Assembly: GCA_019695335.1 (NCBI GenBank)
Contig: JAIBAF010000018.1
Coordinates: 1-55,721 of the forward strand
DNA length: 55,721 nucleotides
Source: a bacterium
GTDB taxonomy: Bacteria; CLD3; SB21
Reading direction: 5' to 3'
Shown here piece after piece: positions 39,937 to 53,990 of this stretch. Position 1 is the stretch's first letter, and the number at the start of each line of letters is the position of its first letter. The notes beneath the pieces are model-generated. The model was not told where the DNA came from and did not search any database. It was given only the letters and a program-made list of their open reading frames with translations. The position numbers were made by a program, and so were the translations under genes.

Positions 39937-40884
39937 ATGATTCGTGTTGAGAATCTGGTAAAAAATTACGGGACGTTGCGCGCCGTCAATAGCATCAATT
40001 TTCAAGTTAATGATGGAGAAATTCTGGGATTCCTGGGGCCGAACGGAGCGGGAAAATCGACGACCTTGAAAATGATGACGACCTATCTTGCGCCCACATC
40101 CGGCAATGTCTATGTTGACCAACTCAATATTCTCGAGCACTCACTCGACATCAGGCGGATGATCGGTTATTTACCGGAACTTAATCCGCTGTATGTTGAA
40201 ATGAATGTGTATGATTATTTGCAATTTGTTGCGTCGGCAAGAGAGATTACAGGGCAAGCATTCAAAAAGCGGTTGGGCGAAGTAGTTGATCTGTGCGGAT
40301 TACGCGGCGTGATCCATAAATATATTTCCGAGCTTTCAAAAGGTTACCGTCAACGCGTCGGCTTGGCTCAAGCGATCTTTCATGATCCGAAAATTCTGAT
40401 TCTGGATGAACCTTCCAGCGGCTTGGATCCTAATCAAATTGTTGAGATCAGGGAATTGATCAAAAACCTCGGCAAGAAAAAAACTCTGATCATGTCCAGT
40501 CACATTTTGCAGGAAATCGAACTGACGGCCGACCGGATGGTGATCATCAATAAAGGCGAAATCGTGGCAGATGGTACGACGGAAGAATTGATGCAATCAT
40601 TCAAAGGCAAAACGGTTTTGACTCTTGAATTAAAAAATGCCAACGAAGCCGATATCAACGGTATTGTAGGAACAGTGAAGGCCGTCAACGTAGCAAAAGT
40701 CGTTAACCTGAATGGAACGATGACCGTTCAATTGGAATATCCGAATACGATTGATCCACGAAGCGATATATTTGATTATGCGGTTAGCCGGCGCTGGACG
40801 ATCCTGGAAATGGGCCGTTATAAAGTCAGTCTTGAAGATGTTTTCCGCACTTTGACCGTAGAAGGAGGCGTGCAGAATGGATAA
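39937..40884 (+). CDS. ABC transporter ATPase, GldA-like
   Basis: A 315-aa nucleotide-binding subunit. Walker A is GPNGAGKST (about 35-43). The signature is LSKGYRQRVGLAQAI, Walker B is ILILDEPSSGLDP, and an H-loop follows (MSSHILQEI). The C-terminal about 90 residues form the extra domain common in GldA/NatA-type exporters. In Bacteroidetes GldA works with GldF and GldG in gliding motility; here the two following genes match those partners, but gliding itself is not shown. Its last codons overlap the permease start by 8 bp. Confidence 0.92.
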   Translation: MIRVENLVKNYGTLRAVNSINFQVNDGEILGFLGPNGAGKSTTLKMMTTYLAPTSGNVYVDQLNILEHSLDIRRMIGYLPELNPLYVEMNVYDYLQFVASAREITGQAFKKRLGEVVDLCGLRGVIHKYISELSKGYRQRVGLAQAIFHDPKILILDEPSSGLDPNQIVEIRELIKNLGKKKTLIMSSHILQEIELTADRMVIINKGEIVADGTTEELMQSFKGKTVLTLELKNANEADINGIVGTVKAVNVAKVVNLNGTMTVQLEYPNTIDPRSDIFDYAVSRRWTILEMGRYKVSLEDVFRTLTVEGGVQNG

Positions 40885-41590
40885 TATTAAGTTGATATAT
40901 CGGAAAGAAATGGCTGCTTTTTTTAACAGCCCGGTCGCGTATATTGTGCTGATCGTATTTGCACTCATTACATCATGGTTCTTTACCAATACTTTTTTTC
41001 TGTCCAATCAATCGGATTTGCGGAGTTTATTTGATGTTGTTCCTTGGGTCTATCTTTTTTTCATTCCGGCCATCTCTATGGGATCGATTGCGAGGGAGAA
41101 AAACAGCGGAACGATGGAATTTCTGGCGACGCTTCCGATGAAGGATTCGCACATTGTTTTGGGAAAGTTTTTGGCGATCGTTTCGCTCATTGGCATAGCT
41201 TTGTTGTTCACTGGAATTCATTTTATTACTCTGTTGTTTGTCGGTACGGCCGTTGATATTGGCGCTATTTTCAGCGGATATTTCGGACTTTTATTGGTAG
41301 GGGCGGCTTATACGGCTATTGGCATTTTGGGAAGCTCGGTGACTGAAAATCAGATCGCAGCATTTCTCCTTAGTTTTCTTTTTATTTCAATACTATGGTT
41401 TTTAGAAAAAATCTTGCCGTTTGTTCCCGATTTTATGACAGAAGTGCTTCAGTTTATCAGTATTGATTATCATTTGAACAACATTTCACGGGGGGTAATC
41501 GACTCGCGAAACCTGATTTATTTTGGGTCATTAATGGTGTTTTTTTTGATCATGAGCGCGCGGGTTTTAGAAATCAGAAAGTGGAGATAA
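40877..41590 (+). CDS. ABC-2 type permease, GldF-like
   Basis: A 237-aa integral membrane protein with about six helices. It starts in IKLIYRKEMAAFFNSPVAYI, typical of the GldF/NosY-like ABC-2 family. PAISMGSIAREKNSGTMEFLATLP is the conserved cytoplasmic coupling loop. It overlaps the ATPase gene by 8 bp and precedes the GldG-like gene by 1 bp, so the three are translationally linked. Confidence 0.9.
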   Translation: MDNIKLIYRKEMAAFFNSPVAYIVLIVFALITSWFFTNTFFLSNQSDLRSLFDVVPWVYLFFIPAISMGSIAREKNSGTMEFLATLPMKDSHIVLGKFLAIVSLIGIALLFTGIHFITLLFVGTAVDIGAIFSGYFGLLLVGAAYTAIGILGSSVTENQIAAFLLSFLFISILWFLEKILPFVPDFMTEVLQFISIDYHLNNISRGVIDSRNLIYFGSLMVFFLIMSARVLEIRKWR

Positions 41591-41591
41591 G

Positions 41592-43145
41592 ATGGAAATC
41601 AGTAATAAAAATCAATTCGTCAAATATTTTTTGTTGATGGCCGCCATTTTGGTGGTTTTAAACATCGTTTCGAGGACATTGTTTTTTCGGTGGGATGCGA
41701 CGGATTCTAAGATGTATTCGTTGTCCGATGCGAGCCGGGAAGTGATCGGTAAACTGGAGGATCAGCTTGTAGCTAAGGTTTATTTTTCCAGCAATATGCC
41801 CAATACATACGCCAATTCACGACGGTATCTTCAAGATTTACTTGAAGAGTACCAGGCGTATTCCGGCGGCCGGTTTCGATTTGAATTTTTCGATCCTGCC
41901 GAAGACGCCAAAACTCAGGAGCAGGCCCGCAATTATAATATTCCGCCGGTGCAATTGCAGGCAATTGAAAATGATAAAATGGAGATAAAGAATGTTTATA
42001 TGGGATTGGTTTTTTTGTATCGCGACAAAAAAGAAACCGTTCCCGTGATCCAAACGACTCAAGGGTTGGAATATAACCTGACGGCGACGATTAAGAAGAT
42101 CACAGCGACCAATTTGAAAACAGTCGGGATTATTTCGGAAGAAAATGAGGAAGTAACCACTCAAAATTTGTCGAAGTTTCTCGAACAATTGTACACGATT
42201 CGGCGAGTGGAATTGTCATCAGCTATTCCGTCTGAAATTCAGGCAATTATTATGAACGGCGTTTCGGATTCGCTGAAACCCGATGAATTATATCATCTGG
42301 ATCAATTTGTGATGCGAGGAGGACAACTATTCATCGCGCAAGGTTCAGTGAAAGATTTCCTTCAACAGGGTTTCGCTACCGAGATACGTTCGAATATTTT
42401 TTCATGGCTTGAACATTACGGAGTCAAAGTAGGGAAGGAATTGCTAACAGACGCAAAGTGCAGTAAGATTCAAATCCAAACGCAGCAAGGGCCTTTTGTT
42501 TTCAGAAATGCTATCGATTACCCGGTTTTTCCTTTGATTCAAAAATTTAATACCGATCATCCGATTACAAAAGGTCTGTCGCAAGCGCGTGTATTTTTTG
42601 TGAGCGAATTATCCCAAACCGAAGGCGTTAAAACTGCGTTTACTCCGCTGATGTTTACATCCGACAAGACGGGCGTTTTACCCGGGCCTTTTTTTCAGAT
42701 TCAACCCAATCAAAATCCGATGATGCAGGCGTTTGCGTTTCCGTCCAAATGCATAGCCGGTATGATCGAAGGAACGATGAGCAGTTTCTTTTCAGGCGAT
42801 TCAGCGTATTCCAGAAAAACTGATTTTATTCAATCGACTAATTCCGGTAGGATTTTGCTTATCACCGATAATCAATTTTTTAACGACCGTCGCGGCGGTG
42901 GCGTTGAGGAAAATACGGAGTGGATTCTGAACGCAGTAGATTATCTTACCGGTGATCAGGAATTGATTGCTATTCGAGCGCGCGATGTGACGTTGCAGCC
43001 GCTTCAAGACGTCGGTGATACGGCCCGTAAATCGCTGAAATGGATCAACATTGTTTTACCGGCAGTGGTGATTGTATTGCTGGGTTTTTACCGATGGAAA
43101 CGCAATCGTGATCGCCGCAAATTATTGGAGGAGTTGTATGCTTAA
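41592..43145 (+). CDS. GldG-like ABC-associated protein
   Basis: A 517-aa protein anchored at both ends: a transmembrane helix at about 10-28 (FLLMAAILVVLNIVSRTLFF) and another at about 480-500 (INIVLPAVVIVLLGFYRWKR). The large domain between faces the periplasm and starts with the family-typical MYSLSDASREVIGKL. It also contains IPPVQLQAIENDKMEIKNVY, the GldG/ABC-auxiliary pattern. It probably couples ABC-driven changes to an envelope process; the cargo is unknown. Confidence 0.88.
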   Translation: MEISNKNQFVKYFLLMAAILVVLNIVSRTLFFRWDATDSKMYSLSDASREVIGKLEDQLVAKVYFSSNMPNTYANSRRYLQDLLEEYQAYSGGRFRFEFFDPAEDAKTQEQARNYNIPPVQLQAIENDKMEIKNVYMGLVFLYRDKKETVPVIQTTQGLEYNLTATIKKITATNLKTVGIISEENEEVTTQNLSKFLEQLYTIRRVELSSAIPSEIQAIIMNGVSDSLKPDELYHLDQFVMRGGQLFIAQGSVKDFLQQGFATEIRSNIFSWLEHYGVKVGKELLTDAKCSKIQIQTQQGPFVFRNAIDYPVFPLIQKFNTDHPITKGLSQARVFFVSELSQTEGVKTAFTPLMFTSDKTGVLPGPFFQIQPNQNPMMQAFAFPSKCIAGMIEGTMSSFFSGDSAYSRKTDFIQSTNSGRILLITDNQFFNDRRGGGVEENTEWILNAVDYLTGDQELIAIRARDVTLQPLQDVGDTARKSLKWINIVLPAVVIVLLGFYRWKRNRDRRKLLEELYA

Positions 43146-50906: not shown

Positions 50907-51434
50907 ATGACTGAGCGAACCGGTATTACGTCGATCAAAGGCAATCCCTTAACGCTATTAGGCGAAGAAGTCAAAGTTGGGCAAAAAGCTCCCAATTTTA
51001 AAGTCAGAACAGGGCTCGCGCCAAATACTGAGATTACTTTGGATTCAAGTAAAGGCAAAATCAGAGTATTTAATGTGGTTCCGTCTTTAGATACAGGTGT
51101 GTGTGAAGCGCAAACCATCCGGTTTAATGAAGAAGCGGCCAAATTGGGCGACGGTGTTGAAATCATGACGGTGAGTATGGATTTGCCACCGGCTCAAGGA
51201 CGTTTTTGCGGGCATCAGCTTAAAGGCGCTGCAAAAATAAAAATGGCGTCGGATTACGCTGAAAAATCTTTTGCAATGAATTATGGCATTTTATTGAAAG
51301 AATGGCAAGTTTGTGGGCGAGGCGTTTTTGTCGTCGATAAAGACGATACCGTAAAGTACGCGCAATATTGTCCAAAGATCGAAGAACAACCCGACTTTGA
51401 TAAAGCGCTGCAAGCGATTAAAACTCTACTGTAA
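50907..51434 (+). CDS. tpx: Thiol peroxidase Tpx
   Basis: A 175-aa atypical 2-Cys peroxiredoxin that reduces hydrogen and lipid peroxides with thioredoxin. The peroxidatic Cys66 is in SLDTGVCEAQT and the resolving Cys101 is in GRFCGH, the Tpx spacing of about 35 residues. The N-terminus TGITSIKGNPLTLLGEEVKV is characteristic. Two further cysteines (VCGRG and QYCPK) are unusual. The ribosome site is TTGGAGG. It is convergent with the ParA/V4R operon across a shared terminator. Confidence 0.95.
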   Translation: MTERTGITSIKGNPLTLLGEEVKVGQKAPNFKVRTGLAPNTEITLDSSKGKIRVFNVVPSLDTGVCEAQTIRFNEEAAKLGDGVEIMTVSMDLPPAQGRFCGHQLKGAAKIKMASDYAEKSFAMNYGILLKEWQVCGRGVFVVDKDDTVKYAQYCPKIEEQPDFDKALQAIKTLL

Positions 51435-51445
51435 TCTCGGAAACT

Positions 51446-51474
51446 AAAAAAGCCTCTCTTTTGAGAGGCTTTTT
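51446..51474. terminator. Bidirectional terminator between tpx and the ParA/V4R operon
   Basis: AAAAGCCTCTC (51448-51458) and GAGAGGCTTTT (51463-51473) pair over 11 bp around a TTTT loop, with T-runs on both strands. It ends tpx on the plus strand and the four-gene operon on the minus strand. Confidence 0.9.
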
Positions 51475-51493
51475 GCTATCGTCAGCTTAAGTC

Positions 51494-51832
51494 TTAACTC
51501 AAACGGTCCAGAAAATTTTTAATTGTCATGGGTTTCAGTTCATCGTTCGTAACCATTAATGTTTGGGCTAGAGTGTTTCGAAAAGCGTTTGGTTTCTTAC
51601 GTTTTAAAGACGTGGCAATAAAATTTTCAATACTGCCATTCGAACGCATTTCGGGTTTTGCGACGGCCAAATCGTTTCCGATCGGCGCTAAAAATTCCGT
51701 AATCGTCAAATATTGTTTATCAAAAAATACCGATGTTGCGGTAGTTTGAACCGAATGCCGGGAGAGGGAAAAAAATTCATCGAGTAATTTAGCTGCAACG
51801 GTTGTCTCTTCAAACGCTTTGCTTTCGCTCAT
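51494..51832 (-). CDS. Small unknown protein, last gene of the ParA/V4R operon
   Basis: I do not recognise this 112-aa protein. It has no signal or membrane segment. The N-terminal half is mixed; the C-terminal half is helical and basic (ATSLKRKKPNAFRNTLAQTL), then TNDELKPMTIKNFLDRL. Its ATG overlaps the V4R stop by 4 bp (ATGA), a strong sign of translational coupling, so it probably acts with the V4R/ParA proteins, for example as an adaptor or DNA- or polymer-binding partner. Size and basic patch would suit a ParA partner, but that is speculation. Confidence 0.65.
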   Translation of the reverse strand: MSESKAFEETTVAAKLLDEFFSLSRHSVQTTATSVFFDKQYLTITEFLAPIGNDLAVAKPEMRSNGSIENFIATSLKRKKPNAFRNTLAQTLMVTNDELKPMTIKNFLDRLS

Positions 51833-52503
51833 GCGGATTCTCCTATTTCCTTCTTCAATTTCTGAAAAGCTTCCAAAGGAGTCATGCCATGGCTAATGGT
51901 TTCCTTTAATTGTCCGATCGTTTCTTCATTGTCGAGCAGGAAAGAACAAAATTCATATCCTTCAATCATACATGTAATTTCCAAACAGGCCAATTGCATG
52001 TTGGAAATACGGCTGAAAATTCCTGCAAGAAAACCCGCGTAAAGATCACACACCGTCGTCGCCGTTTTCTCATTCGATTTTAACGATTCAACGACAAAGC
52101 TGTCATAAAGATCAACAAAAAGAAAGTCATCCCGGCGTTTAAGTTCAAAATTTCCCCAACCCATGGCCGCCAGGTGATTGGTGAAAAGCCGGTGGAATTG
52201 AGGCATGCTAAGTTCCTTAATTGTCTTAACATCCGTGTAAACTGATAAAGCTAATTTTTCGATACTTTGATAGGCCTGATCGCCCCAATGAAAACCCGTT
52301 TTGTATAAAACTGCGGCGGATTGACCTTTGTAACTGTGATGAATGAATTGGTGCAGTGCCGAAAGAAACACCGTATCCAGCGCCATAACGCGATGCTGTT
52401 CGTCCATAATAATTTCGGCCGTAACGGGTGAGTGCTTGATATAATTTTCCGGCAGCACGACGGCGGCAAATTTTTCAAGACGTTCATCTTTAATCTCTGA
52501 CAT
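51829..52503 (-). CDS. V4R-domain protein with four cysteines
   Basis: A 224-aa cytoplasmic protein. The C-terminal half has the V4R (4-vinyl reductase) pattern: CDLYAGFLAGIFSRISNMQL, then LEITCMIEGYEFCSFLL, with Cys152, Cys173, Cys178 and Cys186. Residues 65-75 (VLYKTGFHWGDQA) match the family's LYxxGFxWG segment. V4R domains occur in BchJ-type proteins and in ligand-sensing parts of XylR/DmpR-type regulators, where they bind small molecules and metal. Here there is no output domain. The gene follows the ParA gene by 9 bp and overlaps the next gene by 4 bp. Confidence 0.75.
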   Translation of the reverse strand: MSEIKDERLEKFAAVVLPENYIKHSPVTAEIIMDEQHRVMALDTVFLSALHQFIHHSYKGQSAAVLYKTGFHWGDQAYQSIEKLALSVYTDVKTIKELSMPQFHRLFTNHLAAMGWGNFELKRRDDFLFVDLYDSFVVESLKSNEKTATTVCDLYAGFLAGIFSRISNMQLACLEITCMIEGYEFCSFLLDNEETIGQLKETISHGMTPLEAFQKLKKEIGESA

Positions 52504-52512
52504 TGAATTACC

Positions 52513-53316
52513 TCATTTTCTTAAAAACTTTTTTTCAATTTCTTCGGCTAATTCGTCGTAGGCCTGCAGTCCGATCGAAGTCGGTTCGATTTCTTTGATC
52601 AATTCTTTCACGCTCATCGACCCTGAGTACAAACGATGAAGTTGCGGGTCGCGGGGAATGAGCGACTGAAATACCAGATCATCATTGAAATAGGTATGAA
52701 CTTGTTCGGTCACCGTTTTAGATACAGGATTCAATGTGTCGAACATCGTAATCAGAATACCCGCTATTTCAATGGCATGATTGGATGTTTTTTTAATTTC
52801 AATCAATTGACGCAGCAACTGTGGCAAAGTTCGCAGGCTCAGGGGTTCGCTCTGAAGCGGAATAACGACATAATCGGATGCGATCAGAGCGCCGTTAGTG
52901 ATCAATCCGACACCCGGGGGACAATCGATCAAGATCAAATCAAAATATTGCATGGTGTTTTGAATAATTTCTCTCAGCAGGCCCGATGCGCGAGTGGCTT
53001 CTTCAAAAGCCTGTACGTCGATGACGGAGTTGGCAATACCGCAATCGACGACAAATAATTGATCAAATTCCGTCGTGCGTGCAATTTCATTGATTTCAGC
53101 CTCTCCGCAGAGTGCATGGTAAAGACCGCGATGATGATCATTGGCATCGTAATGTTGACGGCCCCGGTCGAGACTGAAGACCACGCCGCCTTGCGGATCG
53201 GCATCGATGATGAGCGTGCGGTATTGCCGCGAGGAAAATGCAATACCCAAGTTAAGCGCGGTTGTGGTTTTGCCGACGCCTCCTTTTTGGCTGGCTATGC
53301 TGATAATGTGTCCCAT
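52513..53316 (-). CDS. ParA/Soj-family ATPase without adjacent ParB
   Basis: A 267-aa deviant-Walker ATPase. The motif KGGVGKTTT (Lys11, Lys16, Thr17) has the signature Lys of the ParA/MinD family. Switch I region: LIIDADPQGGVVFSLDRG. Walker B is LILIDCPPGVGLITNGAL. MFDTLNPVSKTVTEQV and the late SLIPRDPQLHRLYSGSMSVK match Soj-like proteins. No C-terminal membrane-targeting helix like that of MinD is seen. No ParB or parS site was found near it. Instead it sits between two V4R-type genes, so it may position or gate a non-chromosomal cargo. Confidence 0.9.
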   Translation of the reverse strand: MGHIISIASQKGGVGKTTTALNLGIAFSSRQYRTLIIDADPQGGVVFSLDRGRQHYDANDHHRGLYHALCGEAEINEIARTTEFDQLFVVDCGIANSVIDVQAFEEATRASGLLREIIQNTMQYFDLILIDCPPGVGLITNGALIASDYVVIPLQSEPLSLRTLPQLLRQLIEIKKTSNHAIEIAGILITMFDTLNPVSKTVTEQVHTYFNDDLVFQSLIPRDPQLHRLYSGSMSVKELIKEIEPTSIGLQAYDELAEEIEKKFLRK

Positions 53317-53345
53317 TGGTACCGATTACGTAAGAGGCTATCGAA

Positions 53346-53990
53346 TTACTGAAGGTGTTGATTGTTGTATTGATTCAGAATATCCGCTTCCGATTTGCCG
53401 GATTTCTGCAATGTACGGATCTCATTGATCACGGCAGGAATACTCAAAGCAAAATGGATCTGATCCTGACGATTGGCTGTCGTGAGCGGAATGCAGTCTA
53501 ATTCTTTTGCCGCTACGGAACTGAAGAGTCCTGAAAAAAATCCGGCAAACAGGGGAATGTATATGGCGCTTTTTTCAATGTACAAAATCGCCGGGTTATT
53601 CATGCTGATAACGTAAAACTTATGGCCTTCTGTAATGCGAAATTGCCCAAGGCCCGAATAACTAAAATAGCTGTTCAGATGTTCAACAAATTCATCTTTA
53701 AGATAATCCTGAGGCTTGTGAATATTGTCAGAGGGGTTTTCTTGAATTCGGTTGTTGAGTTGTAAATAAAATTCTTTTCCCCAAGCGTTGCCAATAGAAG
53801 CTAATTGTCCTTCGACCGCATCTTTTTTGGATGATTCAGACAGCGCCATGTACATTGCGGATAAAAAATATTGGTCGGCGAGTCCGCTTCGGATAAGCGT
53901 TTGTGTAAACGGATCTACCATGTGAATATCTCCGCTGACAAAATTTGCTTTTACGCGGTCTTGGGGTGGAACTTCGGTCTTAGTAGGCAT
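53346..53990 (-). CDS. V4R-like protein, paralog lacking the cysteine pattern
   Basis: A 214-aa protein. Aligned by eye to the V4R protein at 51829-52503, it keeps the same order: GLGQFRITEGHKFYVISM (versus GWGNFELKRRDDFLFVDL), then PLFAGFFSGLFSSVAAKELD (versus DLYAGFLAGIFSRISNMQLA), then a hydrophobic strand before a helical tail. Three of the four core cysteines are replaced or absent; the remaining one is in ELDCIPL. It is probably a diverged, non-metal-binding partner. It is the first gene of the four-gene operon, 29 bp before ParA. Confidence 0.65.
   Translation of the reverse strand: MPTKTEVPPQDRVKANFVSGDIHMVDPFTQTLIRSGLADQYFLSAMYMALSESSKKDAVEGQLASIGNAWGKEFYLQLNNRIQENPSDNIHKPQDYLKDEFVEHLNSYFSYSGLGQFRITEGHKFYVISMNNPAILYIEKSAIYIPLFAGFFSGLFSSVAAKELDCIPLTTANRQDQIHFALSIPAVINEIRTLQKSGKSEADILNQYNNQHLQ

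Follow-up and report, generated by a model that had tools for sequence, protein, structure and literature searches.

What does a ParA-type ATPase do when it has no ParB and its gene lies between those of two V4R-like proteins? Many cell structures are organised by ATPases of the ParA family, whose partners are the least understood element of these systems. The question is raised by a bacterial contig, JAIBAF010000018.1 of assembly GCA_019695335.1, whose positions 1 to 55,721 (55,721 nucleotides, the whole stretch analysed) are called the window here. Its minus strand carries four co-directional ORFs, for the V4R-like protein A, ParA, the V4R protein B and the small protein D. They lie exactly where the initial annotation had placed a single-strand, four-gene layout with 4-29 bp spacing or overlap: 29 bp separate A from ParA and 9 bp ParA from B, and the genes for B and D share 4 bp (ATGA). 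The features referred to below are the following.

51450..51475: inverted repeat GCCTCTC-TTTT-GAGAGGC with A and T runs on either side, read directly; a probable two-way terminator that separates D from the convergent peroxiredoxin gene
51494..51832, minus strand: gene D, small protein of 112 aa with three [ST]IxxF[LI] motifs and no confident fold
51829..52503, minus strand: gene B, V4R protein of 224 aa with a putative zinc/thiol cysteine triad; Pfam V4R, 41.4 bits
51946..52050, minus strand: cysteine triad of B, Cys152-x25-Cys178-x7-Cys186, spaced as in DmpR and MaMsvR
52513..53316, minus strand: gene ParA, Soj-like deviant Walker A ATPase of 267 aa without a cognate ParB; AAA_31, 5.6e-41
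52642..52644, minus strand: ParA Gln225, in the place of Myxococcus xanthus ParA Arg238, from the alignment to 8RAY and the orthologue alignment
53266..53286, minus strand: deviant Walker A motif KGGVGKT, ParA residues 11-17, invariant in four aligned orthologues
53346..53990, minus strand: gene A, predicted V4R/TRAPP-fold protein of 214 aa without the cysteine triad, from its paralogy to B and its model matches

A four-gene cassette and where it occurs

The cassette is a real, conserved, lineage-restricted operon, and the part of it that consists of a V4R pair plus a small protein has precedent. The genes are real because all four are under purifying selection, with dN/dS of 0.02-0.15, and because their order is kept in three genera. 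The comparison set was nine genomes of the phylum, two of them from a sister family. In four genomes of the window's family (G000, G004, G006 and G007) the order A-ParA-B-D is intact; in G003 the contig breaks off inside ParA, and in G008 pieces of the cassette lie at contig ends. The cassette thus spans three of the four genera of the family, so that the adjacency of ParA and V4R genes, which might have been peculiar to this genome, is not. Both sister-family genomes lack it. A further genome, G005, has neither the cassette nor the neighbouring peroxiredoxin gene; its absence was not counted, as the assembly is 85% complete and the peroxiredoxin gene is missing too.

That peroxiredoxin gene (window 50907-51434) adjoins the D side, convergently, in every family genome with the cassette. 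Its constancy may reflect synteny only. Because the neighbour on the D side is constant and the other side differs between genomes, we regard the cassette as a unit. The inverted repeat between D and the peroxiredoxin gene is absent from the list given by a terminator scan. A Pfam search found no HTH protein in the cassette, and an MsvR-like transcription switch was rejected on that ground; PADLOC found no match to a known defence system in the cassette. The presumed cargo is not encoded within the cassette. Elsewhere in the window, at 39937-43145, an ABC transporter and its permease and auxiliary protein resemble, by eye only, the gliding-type GldA/GldF/GldG set.

How far does the arrangement extend? 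Searches of 290 genomes sampled across the domain used the V4R family, B and ParA profiles and a broader ParA profile, and they turned up no ParA-V4R linkage outside the window's family. At about 80 V4R loci of other families, with flanks of roughly 1.5-2.5 kb where contig ends permit, there is no ParA, and the best 25 ParA loci outside the family have no V4R. One weak V4R match, at L047 (G198, 746-2289), proved to be a response regulator instead; its gene precedes an orphan ParA. A scan of the genome collection recovered close relatives alone, and the loci inspected in plasmid and viral collections include no ParA-V4R case. A phage-borne origin of the module was rejected, as the B profile found no relative in viral contigs and a viral fold search gave nothing below E 0.05. 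The layout had been thought undescribed, and this view survives in part. We found no described ParA-V4R system in the literature searched, whereas a V4R pair with cysteine asymmetry and a coupled small repeat protein is known from cyanobacteria. The ParA link alone is new, and among the sampled genomes just one small family has it.

Two V4R-fold proteins and a small partner

The initial annotation took both proteins that flank ParA to be V4R-like paralogues, one cysteine-bearing and one cysteine-poor, and on both points it has held up. For B the assignment is by Pfam, where its score exceeds the gathering cut-off of 31 bits for PF02830 (V4R), and its C-terminal half is MsvR-like. The defining feature of V4R/TRAPP proteins is a set of helix glycine pairs (PMC2253512), complete in B. 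Cys152, Cys173, Cys178 and Cys186 are present in all five B orthologues. The C-x25-C-x7-C triad, likewise found in 5/5, is common to about 50 other V4R loci too. Its spacing (26 and 8) is identical to that of the zinc-ligand cysteines 151, 177 and 185 of DmpR (PMC7264223) and the conserved V4R cysteines 206, 232 and 240 of MaMsvR (PMC3729527). The fourth zinc ligand of DmpR is printed as Glu172 (PMC7264223); unlike it, the conserved Glu175 of B lies three residues ahead of Cys178. Judged from these sequence features, B is a true V4R protein with a putative three-cysteine metal/redox site of the DmpR and MsvR type.

A has no Pfam family match and does not reach the PF02830 gathering score. Its kinship with B is seen in a search of its own genome (22% identity, E 3.1e-6) and in profile-profile comparison by hhalign (probability 98.0, E 1.8e-13, 177 columns). 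A was modelled with AlphaFold at moderate quality (pTM 0.70, mean pLDDT 69.7). In Foldseek the best PDB matches of the model are V4R sensor domains, those of MopR, PoxR and DmpR, followed by TRAPPC3/Bet3, the archaeal V4R protein MJ1460 and BcsD; E falls as low as 1.1e-4, but the TM-scores are low, 0.3-0.56. The helix glycines are mostly kept: three of the four are present in 5/5 A orthologues, and the fourth is Gly or Ala in 4/5. With zero to two cysteines, the A orthologues all lack the triad (5/5). A is thus, as modelled, a V4R-fold paralogue of B without the triad site.

A and B share the V4R fold with the sensor domains of DmpR, MopR, PoxR and MsvR. They differ from these proteins in that they stand alone, with no attached DNA-binding or AAA+ enhancer domain, and have a ParA in the operon. 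We note in passing that G000 encodes, on another contig (C59; L117, 3676-7995), a hybrid histidine kinase of 1439 aa that has a V4R domain at its N-terminus and several PAS domains, and that similar V4R-bearing long ORFs occur in other members of the family.

What of the small protein D? None of its six orthologues matches a Pfam family at curated strength, and structure prediction gave no confident fold (pTM 0.19, mean pLDDT 52). D does carry two to three copies of a motif, [ST][VI]xxF[FLI], and no other ORF of the window has more than one (0.06 expected per 112 aa). When a slightly looser form was sought in the surroundings of other V4R and ParA genes (721 ORFs, a set that includes the D orthologues), it picked out only the D orthologues and one other ORF; we add that the motif had been seen in D before this control was designed.

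The slr0144-slr0149-type operon is a photosystem-repair module of cyanobacteria. It contains a V4R pair, an Fe-S protein and a bilin-binding globin (PMC10151467), and interactions among Slr0144-Slr0149 have been validated by affinity purification (PMC9880817). The plasmid V4R proteins closest to ours belong to an Acaryochloris locus (V4R, 120-aa protein, 161-aa protein, V4R, 2Fe-2S protein, allophycocyanin) with the layout of that cluster (PMC10151467). In the cyanobacterial operons the cysteine triad is present in 25 of 25 first V4R proteins and in none of 29 second ones. In most cases the gene of the triad V4R shares 4 bp with that of the next small protein, which has [ST]VxxFF repeats and a conserved, LTLDDFSDLF-like C-terminus. 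At loci L197-L226 this small protein is made of [ST]VxxFFxxxxW repeat units, about five in some copies. The likeness to our cassette is that a pair of V4R paralogues, one with the triad, is found in both, and that the triad V4R is coupled to a small repeat protein. The cassette is unlike the cyanobacterial operon in having ParA between the V4R genes and no Fe-S or globin gene; nor do the nine genomes of the phylum encode a phycobilisome-family protein.

Are these operons related gene by gene? In profile scores B fares better with the first cyanobacterial V4R (61-88 vs 54-64 bits), and A with the second (18-47 vs 6-17 bits), which suggests as much. A tree sets A, B and the cyanobacterial pair on one side and three other V4R proteins on the other (99/96), and one-to-one orthology through a shared duplication gave p-AU values of 0.054 and 0.10. 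That D and the cyanobacterial repeat protein are homologous was not supported: the hhalign probability is 0.5%, and the cyanobacterial motif profile does not single out D. Only the count of the core motif sets D apart. The resemblance between the two small proteins, as read from their sequences, is one of design, in part noticed only afterwards. It is possible that V4R pairs obey a common rule, by which a triad V4R is coupled to a [ST][VI]xxF[FL]-repeat protein in this lineage and in cyanobacteria.

An ATPase without ParB

That the ATPase is Soj-like and lacks a ParB is borne out. It matches AAA_31, and its closest PDB match is M. xanthus ParA (8RAY, 5.4e-37). The Walker A, A' and B motifs, KGGVGKTT with the signature lysine, DADPQGG and IDCPPG, are conserved in the orthologues. 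Pfam found no ParB in the cassette, and no parS occurs in the window at up to three mismatches. A ParB/parS pair just outside the cassette would have spoken against the system; contig C10 is where the genome encodes its ParB together with a Soj, and the best two parS matches are on C14. The third ParA of the genome, on contig C9, is beside a CheW-domain protein.

Can this ParA ride on the nucleoid? In M. xanthus ParA, R238 is needed for non-specific DNA binding (PMC12462528). The corresponding residue is Gln, Val or Ser in all four complete ParA orthologues of the cassette. A second DNA-binding arginine, R189 of Bacillus subtilis Soj, is replaced by Leu, Gln, Asn or His. The orthologues are acidic, with net charges of -11 to -15, a property that is not unique to them: in the tree of ParAs, some chromosomal members reach -8 to -12. 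Of six hydrophobic residues of the ParB pocket, mapped by hand, V116, L150 and L152 stay hydrophobic, and L155, L187 and L192 are replaced by polar or small residues. In that tree the V4R-linked ParAs, four in all, come together as a single clade (100/100), which lies apart from the chromosomal Soj clade to which the genome's own Soj belongs. Nearest to them in the tree are the isolated ParAs L038, L039 and L042, some of which also lack the arginines.

This ParA, then, resembles the Soj/ParA of ParABS systems in fold and Walker motifs and differs from it in having no ParB or parS nearby, in the changed DNA-binding arginines and half-changed ParB pocket, and in its separate clade. Going by sequence, it has seemingly lost its grip on DNA, which argues against ordinary nucleoid-based positioning. 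Ligand-controlled positioning or switching had been proposed for the cassette; positioning of the usual nucleoid-riding kind is the part of that proposal that is weakened, because the DNA-binding arginines are replaced and ParA is strongly acidic.

How the cassette might work

What could the four proteins do together? V4R/TRAPP proteins commonly dimerise, and for that reason we picture A and B as a heterodimer that would bear the zinc/thiol sensor site. D, through its repeats, would act as a multivalent ligand that binds A:B several times over, and the complex might be altered by a small hydrophobic ligand, by a metal or by the thiol state of B. ATP-bound dimers of ParA would dock onto A/B/D, and hydrolysis by ParA would set when or where A/B/D assembles or passes to its cargo. 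The cassette would thus be a cytosolic V4R-D assembly under the control of a dedicated ParA-type ATPase switch. We hold this reading tentatively, as somewhat short of an even chance; most of it is inferred, by analogy with the Slr0144-Slr0149 interactions and the BcsD/BcsP/BcsQ scaffolds. The role proposed for ParA is closer to that of BcsQ with BcsD scaffolds than to the pulling of cargo along DNA, with the limit that another surface of ParA could still bind DNA or membrane.

The main rival is positioning on the nucleoid as in McdAB or PomXYZ, in which ParA-ATP would coat the DNA and a V4R-D adaptor would tether a cargo and stimulate hydrolysis. We consider it unlikely, though deserving of real weight. 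The Soj-like fold and motifs suit it, as do the two further ParAs of the genome and the extreme diversity of the partners of orphan ParAs in the literature, and in four of the six D orthologues the sequence beyond residue 22 contains basic stretches. The known partners, however, tend to have a positively charged, disordered N-terminus, whereas in A, B and D the net charge over residues 1-20 is -3 to +1, and the loss of both arginines in 4/4 orthologues, the acidity of ParA and the three polar or small positions of the ParB pocket all speak against it. A further possibility is the partition of a plasmid or chromosome by a cassette with unusual adaptors. ParA relatives are common on plasmids, and the family is the right one; but the cassette has no ParB, HTH protein or parS, its site beside the peroxiredoxin gene is the same in every genome that has it, and its ParA lies outside the Soj clade with its arginines lost. 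We rejected ordinary chromosome or plasmid partition on the missing ParB/parS and the lost arginines, and the version with unusual adaptors we regard as highly improbable.

In cellulose scaffolds BcsD, which has a related fold, acts together with BcsP and the MinD-family ATPase BcsQ (PMC11470070). Might A and B polymerise with D in a comparable cytoskeletal scaffold, and a BcsQ-like ParA organise an envelope or polysaccharide machine? A ParA/MinD-family ATPase, a subunit of V4R/TRAPP-like fold and a flexible partner are common to the cassette and to BcsQ-BcsD-BcsP/BcsH, and the structures matched by the A model include BcsD, also as part of the BcsH-BcsD filament. BcsD is however one of many V4R/TRAPP matches with similar score. 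The cassette differs further in having two V4R proteins, with B of the MsvR/DmpR type, and a D that is not proline-rich (3-9% proline among the orthologues), and ParA falls well below the BcsQ cut-off (NCBIfam TIGR03371; 61.6 vs 157.85 bits). As none of the nine genomes of the phylum has the cellulose export gene BcsB, a cellulose system proper was rejected, and a scaffold of this kind seems to us distinctly improbable. More doubtful still is a non-photosynthetic relative of slr0144-slr0149 that would handle a tetrapyrrole or another hydrophobic cofactor of that kind, for which ParA would serve as the delivery ATPase. The tree grouping of A and B with the cyanobacterial pair and their matching profile preferences favour such descent, against which stand the missing Fe-S, globin and phycobilisome-family genes and the p-AU values for one-to-one orthology.

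If we return to the V4R-D assembly switched by ParA, a bolder form of it can be put forward. The ParA might represent an undescribed class that does not ride on DNA, in which ATP-ParA would act on a ligand- or redox-sensing V4R heterodimer that gathers a flexible protein through [ST][VI]xxF[FL] docking, the same docking rule serving in slr0144-type complexes. This is a speculative extension, and we think it rather unlikely to hold as a whole. The orphan ParA of the cassette has defined, conserved partners of sensor fold, so that the control of a non-DNA ParA can be tested with four small proteins.

Other ParAs came to light in the survey. Four stand-alone ParAs (L038, L039, L042 and L043, in G188, G043, G271 and G135) have EPLSL[RK]T or EPLALRT replacing EYYALEG, and an altered IPR region; some of them also lack the DNA-binding arginine, and together they may form a broader class of ParAs that do not serve partition. 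The ParA on contig C9 of G000 (L064, 1768-5374) directly follows a CheW-domain protein of 934 aa and is probably a ParA that positions chemosensory arrays.
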